A stretch of 64,000 nt of DNA. It comes from Pelotomaculum sp. (GTDB lineage Bacteria > Bacillota > Desulfotomaculia > Desulfotomaculales > Pelotomaculaceae). Positions 6,581 to 31,453 of this stretch are shown here, piece by piece. Numbering within the stretch: position 1 is the first letter of the stretch; each line of letters begins with the position of its first letter. The notes beneath the pieces were generated by a model. It ran no database searches. It worked only from the letters and a program-made list of their open reading frames with translations, and was not told where the DNA came from. A program made the translations under genes and the position numbers. The DNA lies in NCBI GenBank assembly GCA_018435055.1, contig JAHDOA010000006.1:1-64000 (forward strand), in the 5' to 3' direction.

Positions 6581-8116
6581 TTATTCCCGCAGGCAGGCGC
6601 GCATAATCTCTTTGACCGTGGTGAGGCCTTTGCTTGCCTTTGCCAGCCCGTCCTTCTTGAGAGTGATCATACCGGCGCTTACAGCCGCCTGCCTGATTTC
6701 TTCCGTGGAGACGTTTTGTAAAATAATATTCTGCAGCTCCGGCGACAGCGTCATCACCTCATAAATTGCGATGCGGCCTTTGTAACCGGTATAATTGCAG
6801 ACCTCACATCCTGCGCCGGCAAACAGGCTTGTCCCCGGCGCCAGACCGGCAAAGGCCCTTTCCTGATTATCCGGCTTTACTTCCTGTTTGCAGCGCAGGC
6901 ATATACGGCGTACCAAACGCTGGGCGACCACGCCCGTAACAGAAGAAGCCACCATAAAGGGGGCTGTCCCCATATTAATCAACCTGGTCACTGCCCCCGG
7001 CGCGTCGTTCGTATGAACGGTGGATAGTACAAGATGGCCGGTAACTGACGCCTGCACGGCAATTTCGGCTGTCTGCGGATCTCTAATCTCACCGATCATA
7101 ATCACGTCCGGGTCCTGTCTTAAAATGGAGCGCAGGTAATTGGCAAAAGTAATGCCCGCTTTTTCATTTATCTGCGCCTGGTTAATGTTGGCCAGGGTAT
7201 ATTCTACCGGGTCTTCGACTGTAATAATGTTTTTCTCGATGGTGTTGATTTCATTTAAAGCAGTGTACAGGGTGGTAGTCTTGCCGCTGCCCGTTGGCCC
7301 CGTCACCAGCAGCATACCGTGCGGCGCCTTGATAAAACTCTGAAAACGCTCAAGATTATACCCGGACAAGCCCAGCCGCGGCAGGTTGTATTTATAAACG
7401 TTTCCCTTGTTCAGCACCCGGACAACTACCTTTTCACCAAACATGGTCGGCAACGTAGAAATCCGCAGATCAATATCGCATCCGGATAATTTTAAAGGGA
7501 TCCGGCCGTCCTGCGGCAGGCGCCTCTCAGCGATATCCAGGTTGGCCATCACCTTGATGCGTGAGACAACAGGGAAAATCATTTTGCGGGGCAATTTCAT
7601 AATTTCGCTCAGGAGGCCGTCTATCCGGTACCTGACACGTACATAATCCTCAAATGGCTCAATGTGGATGTCACTGGCCTCTTCATCAATTGCTCTTGTC
7701 AATATCAGGTTAACCAGCCTGATCACCGGCGCTTGATCAATAGATTCCTCTTCCGGGGTTGCGCCCGGTTCACCGTCCTCCGGCCCAATTCCCAGGTCCT
7801 GCATCACCATTTCTATTTCCGGTGTGCCGAAATGTTTCTCAATAAGCGTTTTGATCTCTTTTTTAGCGGCGGCCAGCGGCTCTATGTCGCAGCCGGTAAA
7901 CAGCCTTAAGTCGTCAAGCGCCAGGATATTAAAGGGTTCAGCCATTGCAACAAACAAACAATTTCCTGACTTCCTGACTGGAACCAGCATATATCTGCGT
8001 ATTAAATGTTCCGGTATCAGGCTAAAAAGATTCGGATCTATTACGCCGGCCGGGGATAGTTCCTTGTAACCTGGTATATTAGTCAATACCGGGCCGCCCG
8101 CCAGCCCCATTTTCAT
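6581..8116 (-). CDS. pilB: Type IV pilus / type II secretion assembly ATPase (PilB/GspE)
   Basis: The chosen start gives 511 aa. Order: N-terminal MshEN-like domain, then the secretion ATPase domain with Walker [12 protein letters not shown], Asp box ITVEDPVEY, Walker B MIGEIRDPQTAEIA and His box GHLVLSTVHTND, plus the zinc-binding CLRC...CEVC insert typical of extension ATPases. I prefer the ATG at 8116 over 8149 because GGGGGGTG lies just upstream and the extra 11 residues look untranslated. No retraction ATPase (pilT) is present in the window, which fits a competence pseudopilus or secretion role as well as a pilus. Confidence 0.94.
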   Translation of the reverse strand: MKMGLAGGPVLTNIPGYKELSPAGVIDPNLFSLIPEHLIRRYMLVPVRKSGNCLFVAMAEPFNILALDDLRLFTGCDIEPLAAAKKEIKTLIEKHFGTPEIEMVMQDLGIGPEDGEPGATPEEESIDQAPVIRLVNLILTRAIDEEASDIHIEPFEDYVRVRYRIDGLLSEIMKLPRKMIFPVVSRIKVMANLDIAERRLPQDGRIPLKLSGCDIDLRISTLPTMFGEKVVVRVLNKGNVYKYNLPRLGLSGYNLERFQSFIKAPHGMLLVTGPTGSGKTTTLYTALNEINTIEKNIITVEDPVEYTLANINQAQINEKAGITFANYLRSILRQDPDVIMIGEIRDPQTAEIAVQASVTGHLVLSTVHTNDAPGAVTRLINMGTAPFMVASSVTGVVAQRLVRRICLRCKQEVKPDNQERAFAGLAPGTSLFAGAGCEVCNYTGYKGRIAIYEVMTLSPELQNIILQNVSTEEIRQAAVSAGMITLKKDGLAKASKGLTTVKEIMRACLRE

Positions 8117-20357: not shown

Positions 20358-22841
20358 TTATTTCACTACAATGTTGACCAGTTTATCCGGCACCGTTATT
20401 GTCTTAACAATTTTTTTGCCTGCCGTCAGCTTTAAGATCTTGGGATCTTTCAGCACCCTTTCCTGCATCTGCGCCGCCGCAAGCCCGGCCGGAACCAGCA
20501 TGCGGTCCCGCACCTTACTGTTGATCTGGACGACGATCGTAACCTCATCTTCAACTATCGCCGCCGGGTCGTAAACAGGCCAGGCCTGCAGGTGGATACT
20601 GTCCGCGTGCCCGGTCATTTCCCAGATTTCCTCGGTGATATGCGGGGCGAAAGGGGCCAGCAGCAGGAGCAGTGACTCTACCGCTTCCCTCAGTATAGCC
20701 GGATCACGGTCGGATTCCGGGACCTCCTTGAATTGGTACAGCGCGTTGACCAGCTCCATAATGGCGCTGACAGCCGTGTTGAAATTGAACCGGGCGCTGA
20801 TGTCTTCGGTTACCTTTTTTATAGTTTTATGGGTAACGCGGCGCATCTCCCGGTTTATCCCCACAAGATTGGCCACACGCTTGCGCGGCGCTTTTTTCAA
20901 CGTTTCAACCAGAGGCGCGACCAACCGCCAGACGCGGTTTAAAAAGCGGAAACAGCCTTCCACTCCCTGATCGCTCCACTCCAGGTCGCGTTCCGGCGGC
21001 GCCGCAAAAAGGATAAACATCCTTGCCGTGTCGGCCCCGTAACGGGCAATGATATCTTCCGGGCTGACCACGTTGCCCTTGGATTTAGACATTTTCGCCC
21101 CGTCTTTCAAGACCATGCCCTGGGTTAAAAGGTTGGTAAAGGGTTCTTGATTGCTTACCAGCTCCAGGTCGTAGAGCACTTTTGTGAAAAATCGTGAATA
21201 TAAAAGGTGCAGTATGGCGTGTTCCACCCCGCCGATATACTGGTCTACAGGCAGCCAGTAATCTACTTTGGCTTTGTCCCAGGGGCCTTCTGTTTCCCCC
21301 GGGCTGGAATAGCGGTAATAATACCAGGAAGAGCACATGAAGGTATCCATCGTGTCGGTTTCCCTTTTTCCCGGTCCGCCGCATTTGGGACAGGTTGTAT
21401 TGACAAAGCCGGGGTAGTCCGCCAGAGGCGACCGTCCTGTCGGCTTGAATTTCACATTCATGGGCAGCAGCACCGGCAGATCTTTTTCCGGTACCGGCAC
21501 GACCCCGCAAACATCGCAATAGATGATGGGGATAGGCGCGCCCCAGTAGCGCTGGCGGGAGATCAGCCAGTCGCGCAGCCTGTATGTCACCCTGAACCGG
21601 CCCTGTCCCTTTTCTTCCAGATAAGCGGTAATCGCCTTGATCGCTTCCTTGTTGGGCAGGCCGTTAAACCTGCCGGAATTTACCAGAAAACCTTCCTCCT
21701 CATAAGCTGACAGCATTTCGTCCGCTTCCAGCGTCACCCCGGCGGGCTGGATCACCACCCGGACCGGGAAATTGTATTTGCGGGCGAATTCAAAGTCACG
21801 CTGATCATGGGCCGGCACACCCATGACGCAGCCGGTGCCGTATTCTAAAAGGACGTAATTGGCGATCAGAACCGGCACCTTTTCCCCGGTCAGGGGATTG
21901 ACGCAGTTGACCCCGAGCGGCAGGCCGACTTTTTCCACCTCGGTAGAGGTGCGGTCAATTTCACTCAGGCTTTTTACCTTGCGTACAAAGTCCCTGATTT
22001 GCGCTTCTTTCCCCGACCCGGCAATCAGCTTTTCCACCAGCGGGTGTTCGGGCGCCAGGACCATGTAGGTGATACCAAACACAGTATCCGGGCGGGTCGT
22101 ATATACAGTTATAATATCTTCGGCGCCTTCTATTTGAAAATCGATTTCCGCGCCCTCGCTGCGGCCAATCCAGTTTTCCTGCATGATCTTAACTTTTTCC
22201 GGCCAACCATCCATGAGGACCATATCCTGCAGCAGACGGTCGGCATAGCTGGTAATCTTAAAAAACCACTGGGCCAGCTCCCGCTTCTCGACAGTCGTCT
22301 TGCAGCGCTCGCAGCCCCCGTTGACCACCTGCTCGTTGGCCAGTACCGTAGCGCAGTCCGGGCACCAGTTTACGGCGGACAGCCTTTTGTAGGCCAGCCC
22401 CCTGTGGTAGAGCTGGAGAAAGAGCCACTGCGTCCAGCGGTAGTACTCCGGGTCGCAGGTGGCCAGCTCCCTGTTCCAATCATAGCTGATGCCCAGCTGT
22501 TTCAACTGATCCCGCATTTTGTCTATGTTATCAATGGTCCAGTCAGCCGGATGAATACCGCCGTGTTTTATGGCGGCGTTTTCAGCCGGCAGTCCGAACG
22601 CGTCCCACCCCATCGGGTGCAGCACATGCATACCCTGCATGGTTTTGAAGCGGGCCACCACGTCGCCTATGGAATAGTTCCTGACGTGACCCATATGCAG
22701 TTTACCCGAGGGGTAAGGGAACATTTCCAGACAGTAATATTTCGGCCGGTCGGAATAGTCCGGCACAGCGTAAAGGTCAATTTCATCCCAGCGGTCCTGC
22801 CATTTTTTTTCCACTTCATTAAAATCATACTTTACTTTCAA
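20358..22841 (-). CDS. leuS: Leucyl-tRNA synthetase
   Basis: An 827-aa class Ia synthetase charging tRNA-Leu. The HIGH motif appears as GKLHMGH near residue 46-52 and KMSKS as AKMSKSKGN near 577. The editing (CP1) domain lies between, with a zinc-binding CPDC...CERC element after NWCPDC and TTRPDTVFG in the editing pocket. The C-terminal anticodon-binding and leucine-specific domains are complete. Expression is controlled by the T-box leader at 22943-23269, driven by a consensus promoter right after rsfS. Confidence 0.97.
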
Positions 22842-22944
22842 TTTAGTGCCTCCTTGATTAATCCAGCCGCAAAATTATTAAACTAATACCCTGTCTAATA
22901 TCCCATATCTTAAGGCAATGTGCAAATTAAATTGTATATACAAA

Positions 22945-22971
22945 TAAAAAACCCCTGCATCCCTGTAGGGG
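22945..22971 (-). terminator. T-box-controlled terminator of the leuS leader
   Basis: Minus-strand CCCCT...AGGGG hairpin (22971-22952) followed by TTTTTT, competing with the antiterminator formed around the T-box core. Confidence 0.85.
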
Positions 22972-23020
22972 CGAGAGGTTTAACCCGCGGTACCACCCTT
23001 TTTGGCAAAGATATAATAAA

Positions 23021-23095
23021 TGGTGGAGCTGGCGGGGATTGAACCCGCGGCCTCTTCCATGCCAAGGAAGCGCGCTCCCACTGCGCCACAGCCCC
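23021..23095 (-). tRNA. tRNA-Ala (anticodon GGC)
   Basis: A full cloverleaf: acceptor GGGGCTG/CAGCTCC, D-arm GCGC/GCGC, anticodon stem CTTCC/GGAAG with loop TTGGCAT (anticodon GGC), T-arm GCGGG-TTCAATC-CCCGC, discriminator A and encoded CCA. All stems are paired, with one G-U in the acceptor. It is transcribed on the minus strand within the leuS T-box leader; its first base directly follows the 5' strand of Stem III and its CCA is 8 nt before the 3' strand. It therefore shares the leuS promoter and lies upstream of the leader terminator. Confidence 0.96.
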
Positions 23096-23275
23096 ATCTT
23101 TACCCTCTTACAGCTATAACGGCGCCACCGGACCGGGGTACTAACCATTCCCCCGGACAGCTCAAAGGCGAGTTTCGGCAGCCTCATCCGCCGCCTCGCA
23201 CCTGCCGGCGGCTCTCTAAAGAACAGCGCTGCTTACTGCTCCTCATCATCGCCTTGCAAACTAAAACCGAAGACC

Positions 23276-23304
23276 ATTATAAAACATAGACCCAGATATG
23301 TCAA
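23276..23304 (-). promoter_or_regulatory. Consensus sigma-A promoter of the leuS leader/tRNA-Ala
   Basis: On the minus strand TTGACA (23304-23299) and TATAAT (23281-23276) are both perfect and separated by exactly 17 bases. Predicted start is about 23269, just before T-box Stem I. It lies directly downstream of the rsfS stop codon. Confidence 0.9.
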
Positions 23305-23335: not shown

Positions 23336-23698
23336 CTAAATATTTACCGGATCATCAACAACGCGGGCGTCGCCCCACAGGCGCTCCAAGTTGTAAAACT
23401 GCCGCTCTGCTCCTTGAAATACGTGGATAATAACATCACCATAATCCAGCAGCACCCAGTTGGCCTCCCGGAAACCTTCCCGGCGGAGGGCAATAAGTCC
23501 CTCTCTTTTCAAGTCTTCCTGTATTTTCTCCACTATCGCCTGTACCTGGGTATCCGTACGTCCGCCGCATATGATAAAATAGTCGGCTATAATTGATACC
23601 GCCCTGATGTCAAGAACAGTCACATCCATAGCTTTCTTGTTTTCCGCGGCCTGCACAGCAATATTTACGATTGCCTGTGGACTTAATGGCAATGCCAT
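23336..23698 (-). CDS. rsfS: Ribosomal silencing factor RsfS (YbeB/Iojap)
   Basis: A 120-aa protein that binds L14 of the large ribosomal subunit and blocks subunit joining under starvation. The family core is visible: DVTVLDIRAVSIIADYFIICGG (about 25-46), SDTQV-like TDTQVQAIVEKI, and WVLLDYGDVIIHVFQGAERQFYNLERLW near the C-terminus. Length is normal. It follows the thioesterase gene and precedes leuS, which has its own promoter. Confidence 0.95.
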   Translation of the reverse strand: MALPLSPQAIVNIAVQAAENKKAMDVTVLDIRAVSIIADYFIICGGRTDTQVQAIVEKIQEDLKREGLIALRREGFREANWVLLDYGDVIIHVFQGAERQFYNLERLWGDARVVDDPVNI

Positions 23699-29504: not shown

Positions 29505-29611
29505 AACTAATAACCCCCTTCATTCGGGACACGCCGGAAACAGGTGGGGCACATGCCCGCTTTTTAAGACCAGTTCCGCGCGGTACCACAATACTTTGAA
29601 AATACCTACAG
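29505..29611 (-). promoter_or_regulatory. 5' leader of rplU-rpmA, possible L21 autoregulatory leader
   Basis: About 107 nt separate the predicted start from rplU. It includes the word GTGGTACCGCG, identical to part of the T-box core, and a GGGCATGTGCCC hairpin. L21 leaders are known in Firmicutes, but I cannot verify the fold by eye. Confidence 0.4.
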
Positions 29612-29657: not shown

Positions 29658-29760
29658 GTGTCAAGGGCGTGTCAAGGGGGCGTGTCAAGGGGACGGTTCT
29701 TCTGACACGATCGGACACGATCGCATCCCAGCGTGTCAAGAGAACCGTCCCCGTGACACG
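29658..29760. repeat. GTGTCAAGGGGACGGTTCT inverted repeat
   Basis: Three direct units of (G)CGTGTCAAGGG lead into GGGGACGGTTCTTCTGACACG, which is answered by CGTGTCAAGAGAACCGTCCCC, so the right-hand part can form a long hairpin around ATCGGACACGATCG. It lies between rng and the rplU promoter. A related word GGGGAACCGTCCCC is in the valS leader at 50303-50316. Confidence 0.75.
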
Positions 29761-29761
29761 G

Positions 29762-31453
29762 TTATGTTCTAACCGGGCGCGCTTTGGCATAGGTGCGGTA
29801 GACTTTGCAAACTTCTACCGGGATGGTTTCTCCGACAAAGGCGGCGGCGCCTTCAATATCCAAAATAAAACCGTTTATCCGGGCGATGCCGTCATGAAAA
29901 TTTGTCATATGGGGCTCTTCCACTTTTACCTCTAAGACCTCACCCGGCTTGACCGGGAGCGTGTTGGCCCTGATTTCTTCATTATCATGCAGCGGCCGGA
30001 TGGTCACAGATTCGATATGTTGACTGGCAGAACCACGGATATAAAGGCTCTTCCCCGTCTTATTCTCCAGATCACGCAGGCTGGTCCCGCCGCTGCCGAT
30101 CAGCCGCGCCGCCACCACCGGGTTGGCCTCGACCAGAATGGTCTGCGCCGTGGTCTGGCGGGCGGCATTGTAAATCTGGTTTTTAAAGTTGATACCCAGC
30201 GTCTCCTCGGAAAGCACCTTTCCCCTGCCTTCACAGTACGGACATGGTTTCTGCAGCACCTCGGCCAGGCTGGGCCGCACCTTTTTACGGGTCATCTCCA
30301 CCAGGCCAAGTTGGGTAATGCCGAGGATATTTGTTTTGGTCTTATCTTTCTTGATCTCTTCTTCCAGGACCCGCACCACTTCGCTGCGGTGCGCTTCCAG
30401 GGTCATGTCGATAAAATCGACAATCACAATCCCGCCGATTTTGCGCAGGCGCAGCTGGCGCGCAATCTCGCGCGCCGCCTCCAGGTTGGTCTTCAGCACT
30501 GTATCTTCCAGGTTGGTGGTACCTACGTACTTGCCGGTGTTTACATCAATGGCCGTCAGGGCCTCCGCCTGATCGATCACCAGGTAGCCGCCGCATTTGA
30601 GCCAGACCTTGTGATTTAACGCCTTTTCTATTTCCTGTTCGATGCCGTATTCTTCAAAAATATTTTCCCGCTCGTCTAAAAACACTTTTAGTTTCAAGCG
30701 CGGGTTGGAGATATCCTGCAGTTCCAGAACCTTTTCATACTCATAACGCGAATCCAGGATTAAACGGTCCACGTCCTCGGTGAAGACATCCCGCAGGACC
30801 CGCTGCACCAATTCCAGGTCACGGTGCACTACGTTCGGAACAGTGCCGCCGGCCGCCCTGCTTATAATTTTACGCCACAATTTGGTTAACAGGATGATGT
30901 CTTGACTCAGTTCCTCTTCTTCAACACCTTCAGCTACCGTGCGTACAATCACGCCCATTCCTTCAGGCTTCACTCCGGCTGCCAGGTCCTTTAACCGTTC
31001 CCTTTCTTTTTCAGACTCTATTCTGCGGGAGATGCCGATATAATCCAACGTGGGCATCAACACCAGGTAACGGCCCGGCAGGGTAATGTGGGTGGTCACC
31101 CGGGGCCCTTTGGTGCCGATCGGCTCTTTTACTATCTGTACCAGGATTTCCTGTCCCTGCTTTAAAATGTCACAAATATTAGCGCCGAGGGTATAACCGG
31201 CATGCCCGCCTCCATCCTGTGAATTGGCCGGCAGGGCGTCCTCGACATACAAGAAAGCGTTTTTTTCCAACCCGATATTGACAAAGGCTGCCTGCATACC
31301 GGGCAGCACATTTTCTACCCTTCCCCTAAAAATATTTCCCACCAGGCGCTGGTTTATGGATCTTTCTATATATATCTCCACAAGTATTTTATCTTCAAGT
31401 ACAGCTACCCTGGTTTCTTCCTCTCCAACATTCACCACAATTTCCTTTAACAT
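29762..31453 (-). CDS. rng: Ribonuclease E/G family endoribonuclease (RNase G)
   Basis: A 563-aa enzyme that processes rRNA and mRNA. The S1 RNA-binding domain (about 35-125) contains GNIFRGRVENVLPGMQAAFVNIG-like sequence; the RNase H-like catalytic part has IDVNTGKY and GGIVIVDFIDM with the two metal-binding aspartates; CPYCEGRG is the Zn-link. I choose ATG 31453 (MLKEIVVNVG) rather than 31498 because the family begins here and GGAGAGGATAGG precedes it. It lacks the long C-terminal scaffold of RNase E. Confidence 0.95.
   Translation of the reverse strand: MLKEIVVNVGEEETRVAVLEDKILVEIYIERSINQRLVGNIFRGRVENVLPGMQAAFVNIGLEKNAFLYVEDALPANSQDGGGHAGYTLGANICDILKQGQEILVQIVKEPIGTKGPRVTTHITLPGRYLVLMPTLDYIGISRRIESEKERERLKDLAAGVKPEGMGVIVRTVAEGVEEEELSQDIILLTKLWRKIISRAAGGTVPNVVHRDLELVQRVLRDVFTEDVDRLILDSRYEYEKVLELQDISNPRLKLKVFLDERENIFEEYGIEQEIEKALNHKVWLKCGGYLVIDQAEALTAIDVNTGKYVGTTNLEDTVLKTNLEAAREIARQLRLRKIGGIVIVDFIDMTLEAHRSEVVRVLEEEIKKDKTKTNILGITQLGLVEMTRKKVRPSLAEVLQKPCPYCEGRGKVLSEETLGINFKNQIYNAARQTTAQTILVEANPVVAARLIGSGGTSLRDLENKTGKSLYIRGSASQHIESVTIRPLHDNEEIRANTLPVKPGEVLEVKVEEPHMTNFHDGIARINGFILDIEGAAAFVGETIPVEVCKVYRTYAKARPVRT

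Follow-up and report, generated by a model that had tools for sequence, protein, structure and literature searches.

The window analyzed here, a 64,000-nucleotide stretch of DNA from Pelotomaculum sp., encodes leuS on its minus strand. The leader of this gene is a full-length T-box riboswitch with a complete tRNA-Ala(GGC) gene in the loop of Stem III, as detected with cmscan and ARAGORN (Table 1). Along the RNA, the elements follow in the order promoter, Stem I, AAGAG, Stem III 5′ arm, tRNA, trailer, Stem III 3′ arm, AA, antiterminator, terminator, and leuS. The upstream neighbor, which lies outside this element, we take from its sequence to be an rsfS-like gene.

Table 1. Features of the leuS leader and its surroundings, with their positions in the window and the evidence for each.
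Feature	Position	Strand	Evidence and remarks
Sigma-A type promoter, TTGACA-17 nt-TATAAT	23276..23304	minus	12/12 consensus; common to T-box leader and tRNA
T-box leader RNA, predicted start to end of terminator U-run	22945..23269	minus	RF00230 match; start (~23269) predicted from the promoter
T-box Stem I	23159..23252	minus	RF00230 alignment
Specifier codon CTC (Leu)	23170..23172	minus	Sequence and RF00230 alignment
AAGAG, 5′ RRRNG purine motif of the discriminator	23105..23109	minus	Sequence compared with the motif in PMC7778990 and PMC7583486
Stem III 5′ arm GGTAAAGAT, abutting the tRNA	23096..23104	minus	Sequence, RF00230 alignment, folding; covariation over 76 non-redundant loci
tRNA-Ala(GGC) with encoded CCA, G3:U70, A73	23021..23095	minus	ARAGORN; RF00005, 67.7 bits
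A/T-rich 3′ trailer TTTATTAT, between CCA and Stem III 3′ arm	23013..23020	minus	Sequence
Stem III 3′ arm ATCTTTGCC, followed by AA (23003-23002)	23004..23012	minus	Sequence, RF00230 alignment, folding
Antiterminator; T-box bulge TGGTACC at 22995-22989, UGGU pairing with ACCA	22967..22999	minus	RF00230 alignment; -9.1 kcal/mol
Leader terminator, AACCTCT...AGGGGTT then T-run	22945..22980	minus	-12.6 kcal/mol; exclusive with the antiterminator
leuS, leucyl-tRNA synthetase, 827 aa, TTG start, AAGGAGG upstream	20358..22841	minus	ORF; as tblastn query, finds LeuS homologues at 92 loci
rsfS-like ribosome silencing factor gene, upstream neighbor	23336..23698	minus	ORF

The Rfam T-box model (RF00230) matched from its position 1 to 219 at 22964–23258 with 126.8 bits (E = 2.4e-28), above the curated gathering threshold of 93, and its alignment accommodates the whole tRNA as one 82-base insert within the loop of Stem III. 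The Leu specifier is accompanied by leuS downstream and by a cognate tRNA-Leu(GAG) in the genome (L214), whose ACCA end is complementary to the UGGU bulge. Both the antiterminator and the terminator lie 3′ of the tRNA and have the segment CUCGCCCCU in common, so the two exclude each other; a simple terminator scan did not list the latter, probably because its stem has an internal loop. The tRNA itself has a cloverleaf, a GGC anticodon, an encoded CCA, and the AlaRS identity pair G3:U70. It is the only tRNA-Ala(GGC) among the 45 typed tRNAs of the draft genome; the only other tRNA-Ala found is CGC, and Ala(TGC) and Ile(GAT) are missing from the draft assembly. Among the 17 T-box matches in this genome, it is the only tRNA found inside one. 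At the level of sequence, the leader thus has every feature tested of a transcriptional T-box and of a tRNA-Ala gene. Rfam matches to tmRNA and miRNA models were dismissed as chance or tRNA-clan overlaps.

A first-pass annotation, made from the letters alone, had described a T-box with Stem I and CTC, Stem III, core, and terminator in this order, and a perfect tRNA-Ala(GGC) with CCA whose first base abuts the 5′ arm. All of these elements are present where it had put them, and the objection that no valid T-box exists here fails against a full-length match. Its Stem III stands as nine base pairs, one G-U among them, between GGTAAAGAT and ATCTTTGCC, but the first G of its GGGTAAAGAT belongs to the flanking RRRNG motif. 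It had also argued that the tRNA is made before the terminator, whatever the T-box decides, and had raised the objection that leuS might be transcribed only from a promoter downstream of the tRNA. A promoter lies just upstream of the T-box, and a scan of the minus strand between the tRNA and leuS returned none, which supports the argument and speaks against the objection.

The cloverleaf of the tRNA reaches −32.4 kcal/mol against −32.5 kcal/mol for the minimum free energy (MFE) of the same sequence, and −39.3 kcal/mol together with the Stem III arms. Whole-leader MFE folding gave z = −0.03 and did not favor the T-box fold, which costs ~8 kcal/mol to force. Such a calculation is uninformative for a co-transcriptional switch, yet it provides no support for the T-box fold.

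Two further features of the window lie apart from this locus. A long imperfect inverted repeat at 29676–29763 (GTGTCAAGGGGACGGTTCTTCTGACACG ... GTGTCAAGAGAACCGTCCCCGTGACACG) gave spurious miRNA matches and looks like a small mobile or REP-like element. On the minus strand at 29582–29528, the model of the ribosomal protein L21 leader (RF00559) matched below its threshold (29.2 bits vs 36), upstream of a same-strand obg-like gene.

Recurrence of the nested tRNA across genomes and phyla

We described the arrangement by a joint pattern, a tRNA T-arm and CCA followed after 6–36 nt by the T-box core, which names neither the tRNA type nor the downstream gene. It matched a single site in the window and no site in 100 shuffles; in genome contigs, it matched at least 119 stretches. 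Among the matches listed, ARAGORN found a tRNA-Ala(GGC) overlapping the pattern at 98 loci. The other tRNAs overlapping listed matches were Leu (2), Ser, Gln, and Pro; these five loci, and the matches with no tRNA, were taken as chance, leuS not being downstream. For the tRNA-Ala loci, leuS is downstream in 92 of the 98 listed, no more than 400 nt away in 75, and the other six reach the end of the stretch first. G3:U70, A73, and CCA are present in all 98, the specifier CUC in its expected context in 93, and the T-box UGGU in 96. Four LeuS-positive loci (L064, L102, L130, and L162) were left out of some counts for a contig end, a broken tRNA, or a short flank.

These loci, at least 98 in number, are spread over Bacillota, Chloroflexota, and scattered other phyla. 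Isolates are among the hosts: Desulfotruncus alcoholivorax, Desulfofundulus (D. thermosubterraneus), Desulfallas, Thermosyntropha lipolytica, Syntrophomonas palmitatica, S. wolfei subsp. methylbutyratica, Dictyobacter, Tengunoibacter, and Ktedonobacter robiniae. Metagenome-assembled genomes (MAGs) labeled Coprothermobacterota, Caldisericota, Armatimonadota, Atribacterota, Thermomicrobiales, and others also carry it, with the reservation that single labels may be misbinned. At the Rfam gathering threshold, 19 divergent loci yielded one T-box above the cut-off (L108, 94.7 bits, full length over the tRNA). A permissive RF00230 scan gave full-length matches over the tRNA, at 40–93 bits, in 16 of 17 further divergent loci. 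The exception, L165, is rearranged and has only an antiterminator fragment at its tRNA. A cross-phylum LeuS tree, built from tRNA-bearing loci only and possibly including misbinned MAGs, largely follows the named phyla; given this sampling, we claim neither vertical descent nor transfer.

In the class of the window, the exact pattern occurs in 37 of 113 genomes and 23 of 55 genera. Direct reading of the sequences added six class leaders with variant cores (GGTATCGCG, GGTAACGCG; L181, L182, L189–L191, and L205), and RF00230 matched full length over the tRNA in these six and in two more class relatives. The same exact pattern showed nesting in 54 of 63 genomes of the class of Syntrophomonas palmitatica and in 21 of 47 of the class of Ktedonobacter robiniae. 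A reversed control pattern matched once in the window's class and not at all in the other two.

The window comes from a draft genome of 70 contigs, so a mis-assembly, a pseudo-tRNA, or a non-functional T-box had to be considered. The first-pass annotation had itself named related genomes as the place where an assembly artefact would be exposed. They contain the same nesting, in isolates (Syntrophomonas palmitatica, Desulfofundulus thermosubterraneus, Thermosyntropha lipolytica, and Ktedonobacter robiniae) as well as in single-contig genomes such as G062 and G095. Together with identity elements kept in every listed locus and the covarying arms described below, this makes an artefact or dead element a negligible prospect.

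Several relatives differ in their surroundings. In seven Desulfotomaculum-type loci (L060, L083, L099, L134, L149, L187, and L188), a gene of ~1.7 kb lies between the tRNA-bearing T-box and leuS; it has an AMP-binding signature, appears acyl-CoA ligase-like by eye, and may also be controlled by the leucine T-box. Armatimonadota-type MAGs (L077, with similar spacing in L093, L122, and L138) have ~1 kb between T-box and leuS, and the intervening frame of L077 resembles by eye a branched-chain aminotransferase (ilvE-like), which would fit leucine control. In Ktedonobacter-type genomes (L050, L057, L068, L088, L111, L112, L127, and L158), the embedded Ala(GGC) is preceded by a further tRNA, Ala(CGC), ~300 nt upstream in most and ~1.5 kb in L057. 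Two Chloroflexi MAGs (L063 and L081) have a UGGA bulge rather than UGGU, though their embedded tRNA-Ala ends in ACCA. In the Atribacteria MAG of L165, no Stem I was detected before the tRNA-Ala and antiterminator fragment (2713–2847), and another T-box (7189–7451) lies ~4.4 kb further on, after a tRNA cluster.

The Stem III helix around the tRNA

PMC7778990 and PMC7583486 report the RRRNG-Stem III-AA motif as essential for aminoacylation sensing, so the tRNA occupies the variable tip of an essential helix. The window has AAGAG-Stem III-AA, and loose patterns found RRRNG in 71 and AA in 75 of 76 non-redundant loci. For these loci, the 30 nt before the tRNA were paired with the stretch after the CCA, and partners were then swapped between loci. 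Own partners had a mean of −10.75 kcal/mol vs −7.06 ± 0.28 kcal/mol for swapped ones (300 permutations, best −7.79). When the arms were anchored on the RRRNG and AA motifs only, regardless of pairing, 304 of 402 cells paired vs 234 ± 7 in 2000 shuffles (maximum 259), with positions alternating among G-C, A-U, U-A, and C-G; an earlier choice of anchors gave 306 of 448 vs 241 ± 8. Kinship makes these shuffles imperfect, and swaps among relatives work against the effect. A hand-picked Stem III alignment was kept out of the evidence because its rows were chosen. As judged by these comparisons of aligned loci, the arms flanking the tRNA covary and are selected as a helix.

In three loci from Coprothermobacterota and Caldisericota MAGs (L071, L089, and L092, with L089 judged by its resemblance to L071), Stem III arms are nearly absent. 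The picture of a tRNA that caps Stem III therefore does not hold everywhere; here, the tRNA may be the only helix at that position. They lend themselves to the idea of a folding scaffold, in which a fast-folding, stable cloverleaf replaces the tip of Stem III or Stem III itself and either aids the discriminator or pauses the polymerase. With arms that hardly pair, the acceptor stem of the tRNA could be the sole helix in these three, and PMC7583486 calls Stem III indispensable for binding of the tRNA 3′ end in the T-boxes studied. Against a scaffold, relatives make do with short plain Stem III hairpins (L184, L185, L196, and L197) or relic inserts, and the embedded tRNA retains all of its own identity elements, which exceeds what a scaffold needs. 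We consider this role very unlikely.

Leaders in which one element survives alone

The leuS upstream regions of 40 genomes of the class were compared and sorted into five states. In state A, the tRNA is nested in the T-box. State B lacks the tRNA, and the Stem III of its T-box is short and plain (L184, L185, L186, L196, and L197), a comparison that identifies the seat of the tRNA as the apical loop. In state C, a decayed insert occupies that seat: the insert of L172 is still recognizable as tRNA-Ala, and those of L174 and L176–L179 are more decayed. These relic-bearing T-boxes score 114–129 bits, and L180 (39 bits) seems to be decaying itself. State D has a tRNA-Ala(GGC) upstream of leuS without a T-box (L167, L192, and L198–L204), followed by a terminator-like sequence that in L203 resembles the T-box terminator; L167, which belongs to the genus of the window, has its bare tRNA-Ala(GGC) behind the same promoter. 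Several genomes have neither element within ~2.5 kb (state E).

A LeuS tree of 41 sequences requires eight changes among these states. The relic genomes group in a single clade (SH-aLRT 97), and L226, a tRNA-only locus from the same genus, falls in a group with a support of 99 whose other members are nested. The tree shows that either element has been lost separately and repeatedly; it does not date the origin of the nesting. T-box and tRNA each survive alone in relatives, so neither needs the other.

This independence bears on a proposal of the first-pass annotation, that the ACCA of the embedded tRNA could compete in cis through its match to the UGGU bulge. Such pairing would mimic or block uncharged tRNA-Leu. 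The two are complementary in 96 of the 98 listed loci, which speaks for it. The match loses its force because every embedded tRNA-Ala in the listed loci has ACCA, and because tRNA-Leu(GAG) ends in ACCA too: ordinary sensing already requires the UGGU match, which is therefore uninformative on cis pairing. Moreover, a trailer follows the embedded CCA, leaving no free 3′ end, and the relics lose ACCA while their T-boxes persist. The T-box outlives the tRNA and the tRNA outlives the T-box, and we give competition in cis next to no credence.

The gene content of the class points to a tRNA kept for its own function. A pattern census found tRNA-Ala(GGC) in 93 of 113 genomes, with the proviso that the pattern is restricted, the genomes are incomplete, and second copies may be missed. 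When gene places were compared by hand, ~70 genomes had it no more than 3 kb upstream of leuS or, for G014, beside the T-box where the contig ends; 21 had it only elsewhere, and two were unplaceable. Among the ~70 leuS-linked genomes, only G013 and G095 have a second tRNA-Ala(GGC). In this class, the leuS-linked gene is therefore usually the only tRNA-Ala(GGC) detected. Six relic genomes (G086, G087, G089, and G097–G099) each have another tRNA-Ala(GGC) that is not linked to leuS, which is what retention of the embedded copy for its tRNA function would predict; in the seventh, G088 (74% complete), the census shows none. The pattern fits a replacement GGC gene that freed the embedded copy to decay.

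A probable dual-use leader and its relation to known systems

Both elements are intact, have a common promoter, are conserved together, and are separately losable, all as read from the genomes. The leader RNA is probably dual-use, serving as the T-box sensor for leuS and as the precursor of the cell's tRNA-Ala(GGC). We infer the transcript, the order of folding and excision, the mRNA end, and charging as follows. One sigma-A promoter would give a single transcript that contains both a T-box for uncharged tRNA-Leu(GAG), controlling leuS by antitermination, and the tRNA-Ala(GGC) precursor. The tRNA would fold independently and cap the Stem III helix, whose base would serve the discriminator together with the flanking purines, so that sensing would tolerate the tRNA. 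According to PMC7583486 and PMC4919913, the T-box decision falls during transcription and Stem III is integral to the discriminator. In the dual-use leader, the decision would likewise come first, with Stem III and the tRNA closed into a single arm. RNase P and 3′ nucleases would afterwards excise tRNA-Ala from terminated leaders and read-through transcripts alike, which would make tRNA output independent of the leucine decision. The terminated leader, otherwise wasted, would gain a use as a tRNA source. After excision from read-through RNA, the leuS mRNA could start at the leader-terminator hairpin, much as in the Bacillus subtilis thrS leader after cleavage by RNase J/Y. The first 8 nt of the trailers are 73% A/T vs 49% in the leaders, and such A/T-rich trailers would suit a single-strand endonuclease.

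The deep conservation could mark a regulatory link that the dual-use model leaves out. Processing may be part of the control, with excision of tRNA-Ala by RNase P and 3′ nucleases setting leuS output. It might do so by destroying unused sensor complexes, by fixing or resetting the T-box decision, or by creating a stable 5′ end of the leuS mRNA, and would thereby couple leucine control to tRNA maturation. The frequency of nesting in Syntrophomonas-type and Ktedonobacter-type genomes is more than a passenger seems to need, and the A/T-rich trailers fit single-strand endonucleases. There is also precedent in B. subtilis, where RNases J and Y cleave T-box leaders and drive their turnover; for thrS/thrZ, a cut ahead of the leader terminator is known (PMC3542257, PMC3997798). 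However, T-boxes with a decayed tRNA still score as high as noted above, and T-boxes with no tRNA occur in the same class; such intact T-boxes indicate that processing is not required for control in those relatives. We therefore regard excision as a working regulatory step as unlikely, though if true it would couple tRNA-Ala maturation to the level of leucyl-tRNA synthetase across several phyla.

The T-box is the model case of an RNA that senses RNA, and recognition of Stem III as part of the sensor is recent. The dual-use leader would unite in one transcript a sensor that needs to be whole and a precursor that needs to be cut, so that the order in which folding, decision, and processing occur can be put to a direct test. 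Through this leader, an alanine tRNA is tied to leucine control in several phyla, and nature provides a way to gauge how large a load Stem III can bear. Its relatives supply ready-made controls: a relic tRNA, an empty Stem III, and a tRNA without a T-box. The embedded tRNA also explains one class of unexplained T-box insertions.

Such insertions are mentioned for every T-box domain in PMC7583486, whose consulted portion does not name an embedded tRNA. The first-pass annotation had known of no precedent, and we likewise found no description of a T-box with an embedded tRNA in the openly licensed papers searched, key T-box surveys not being among them, so priority is uncertain. With that caveat on priority, the embedded-tRNA leader is a new and deeply conserved T-box variant. 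It shares with the transcriptional T-box leuS leaders of RF00230 a Stem I with the Leu specifier CUC, the RRRNG-Stem III-AA arrangement, the UGGU bulge, and the choice between antiterminator and terminator, and differs in that Stem III holds a complete tRNA-Ala(GGC) gene. Co-transcribed tRNA-mRNA operons, of which E. coli thrU-tufB is an example, also yield tRNA and mRNA from one transcript, with the tRNA excised by processing enzymes, as we would expect here. In those operons, however, the tRNA sits beside other elements, whereas here it lies inside a helix of a riboswitch that senses another tRNA. The thrS and thrZ leaders of B. subtilis resemble the proposed dual-use leader in being T-box leaders cleaved upstream of the leader terminator (PMC3997798), but there RNase J/Y acts at a single-stranded site, and here RNase P and 3′ maturation would act at the tRNA.
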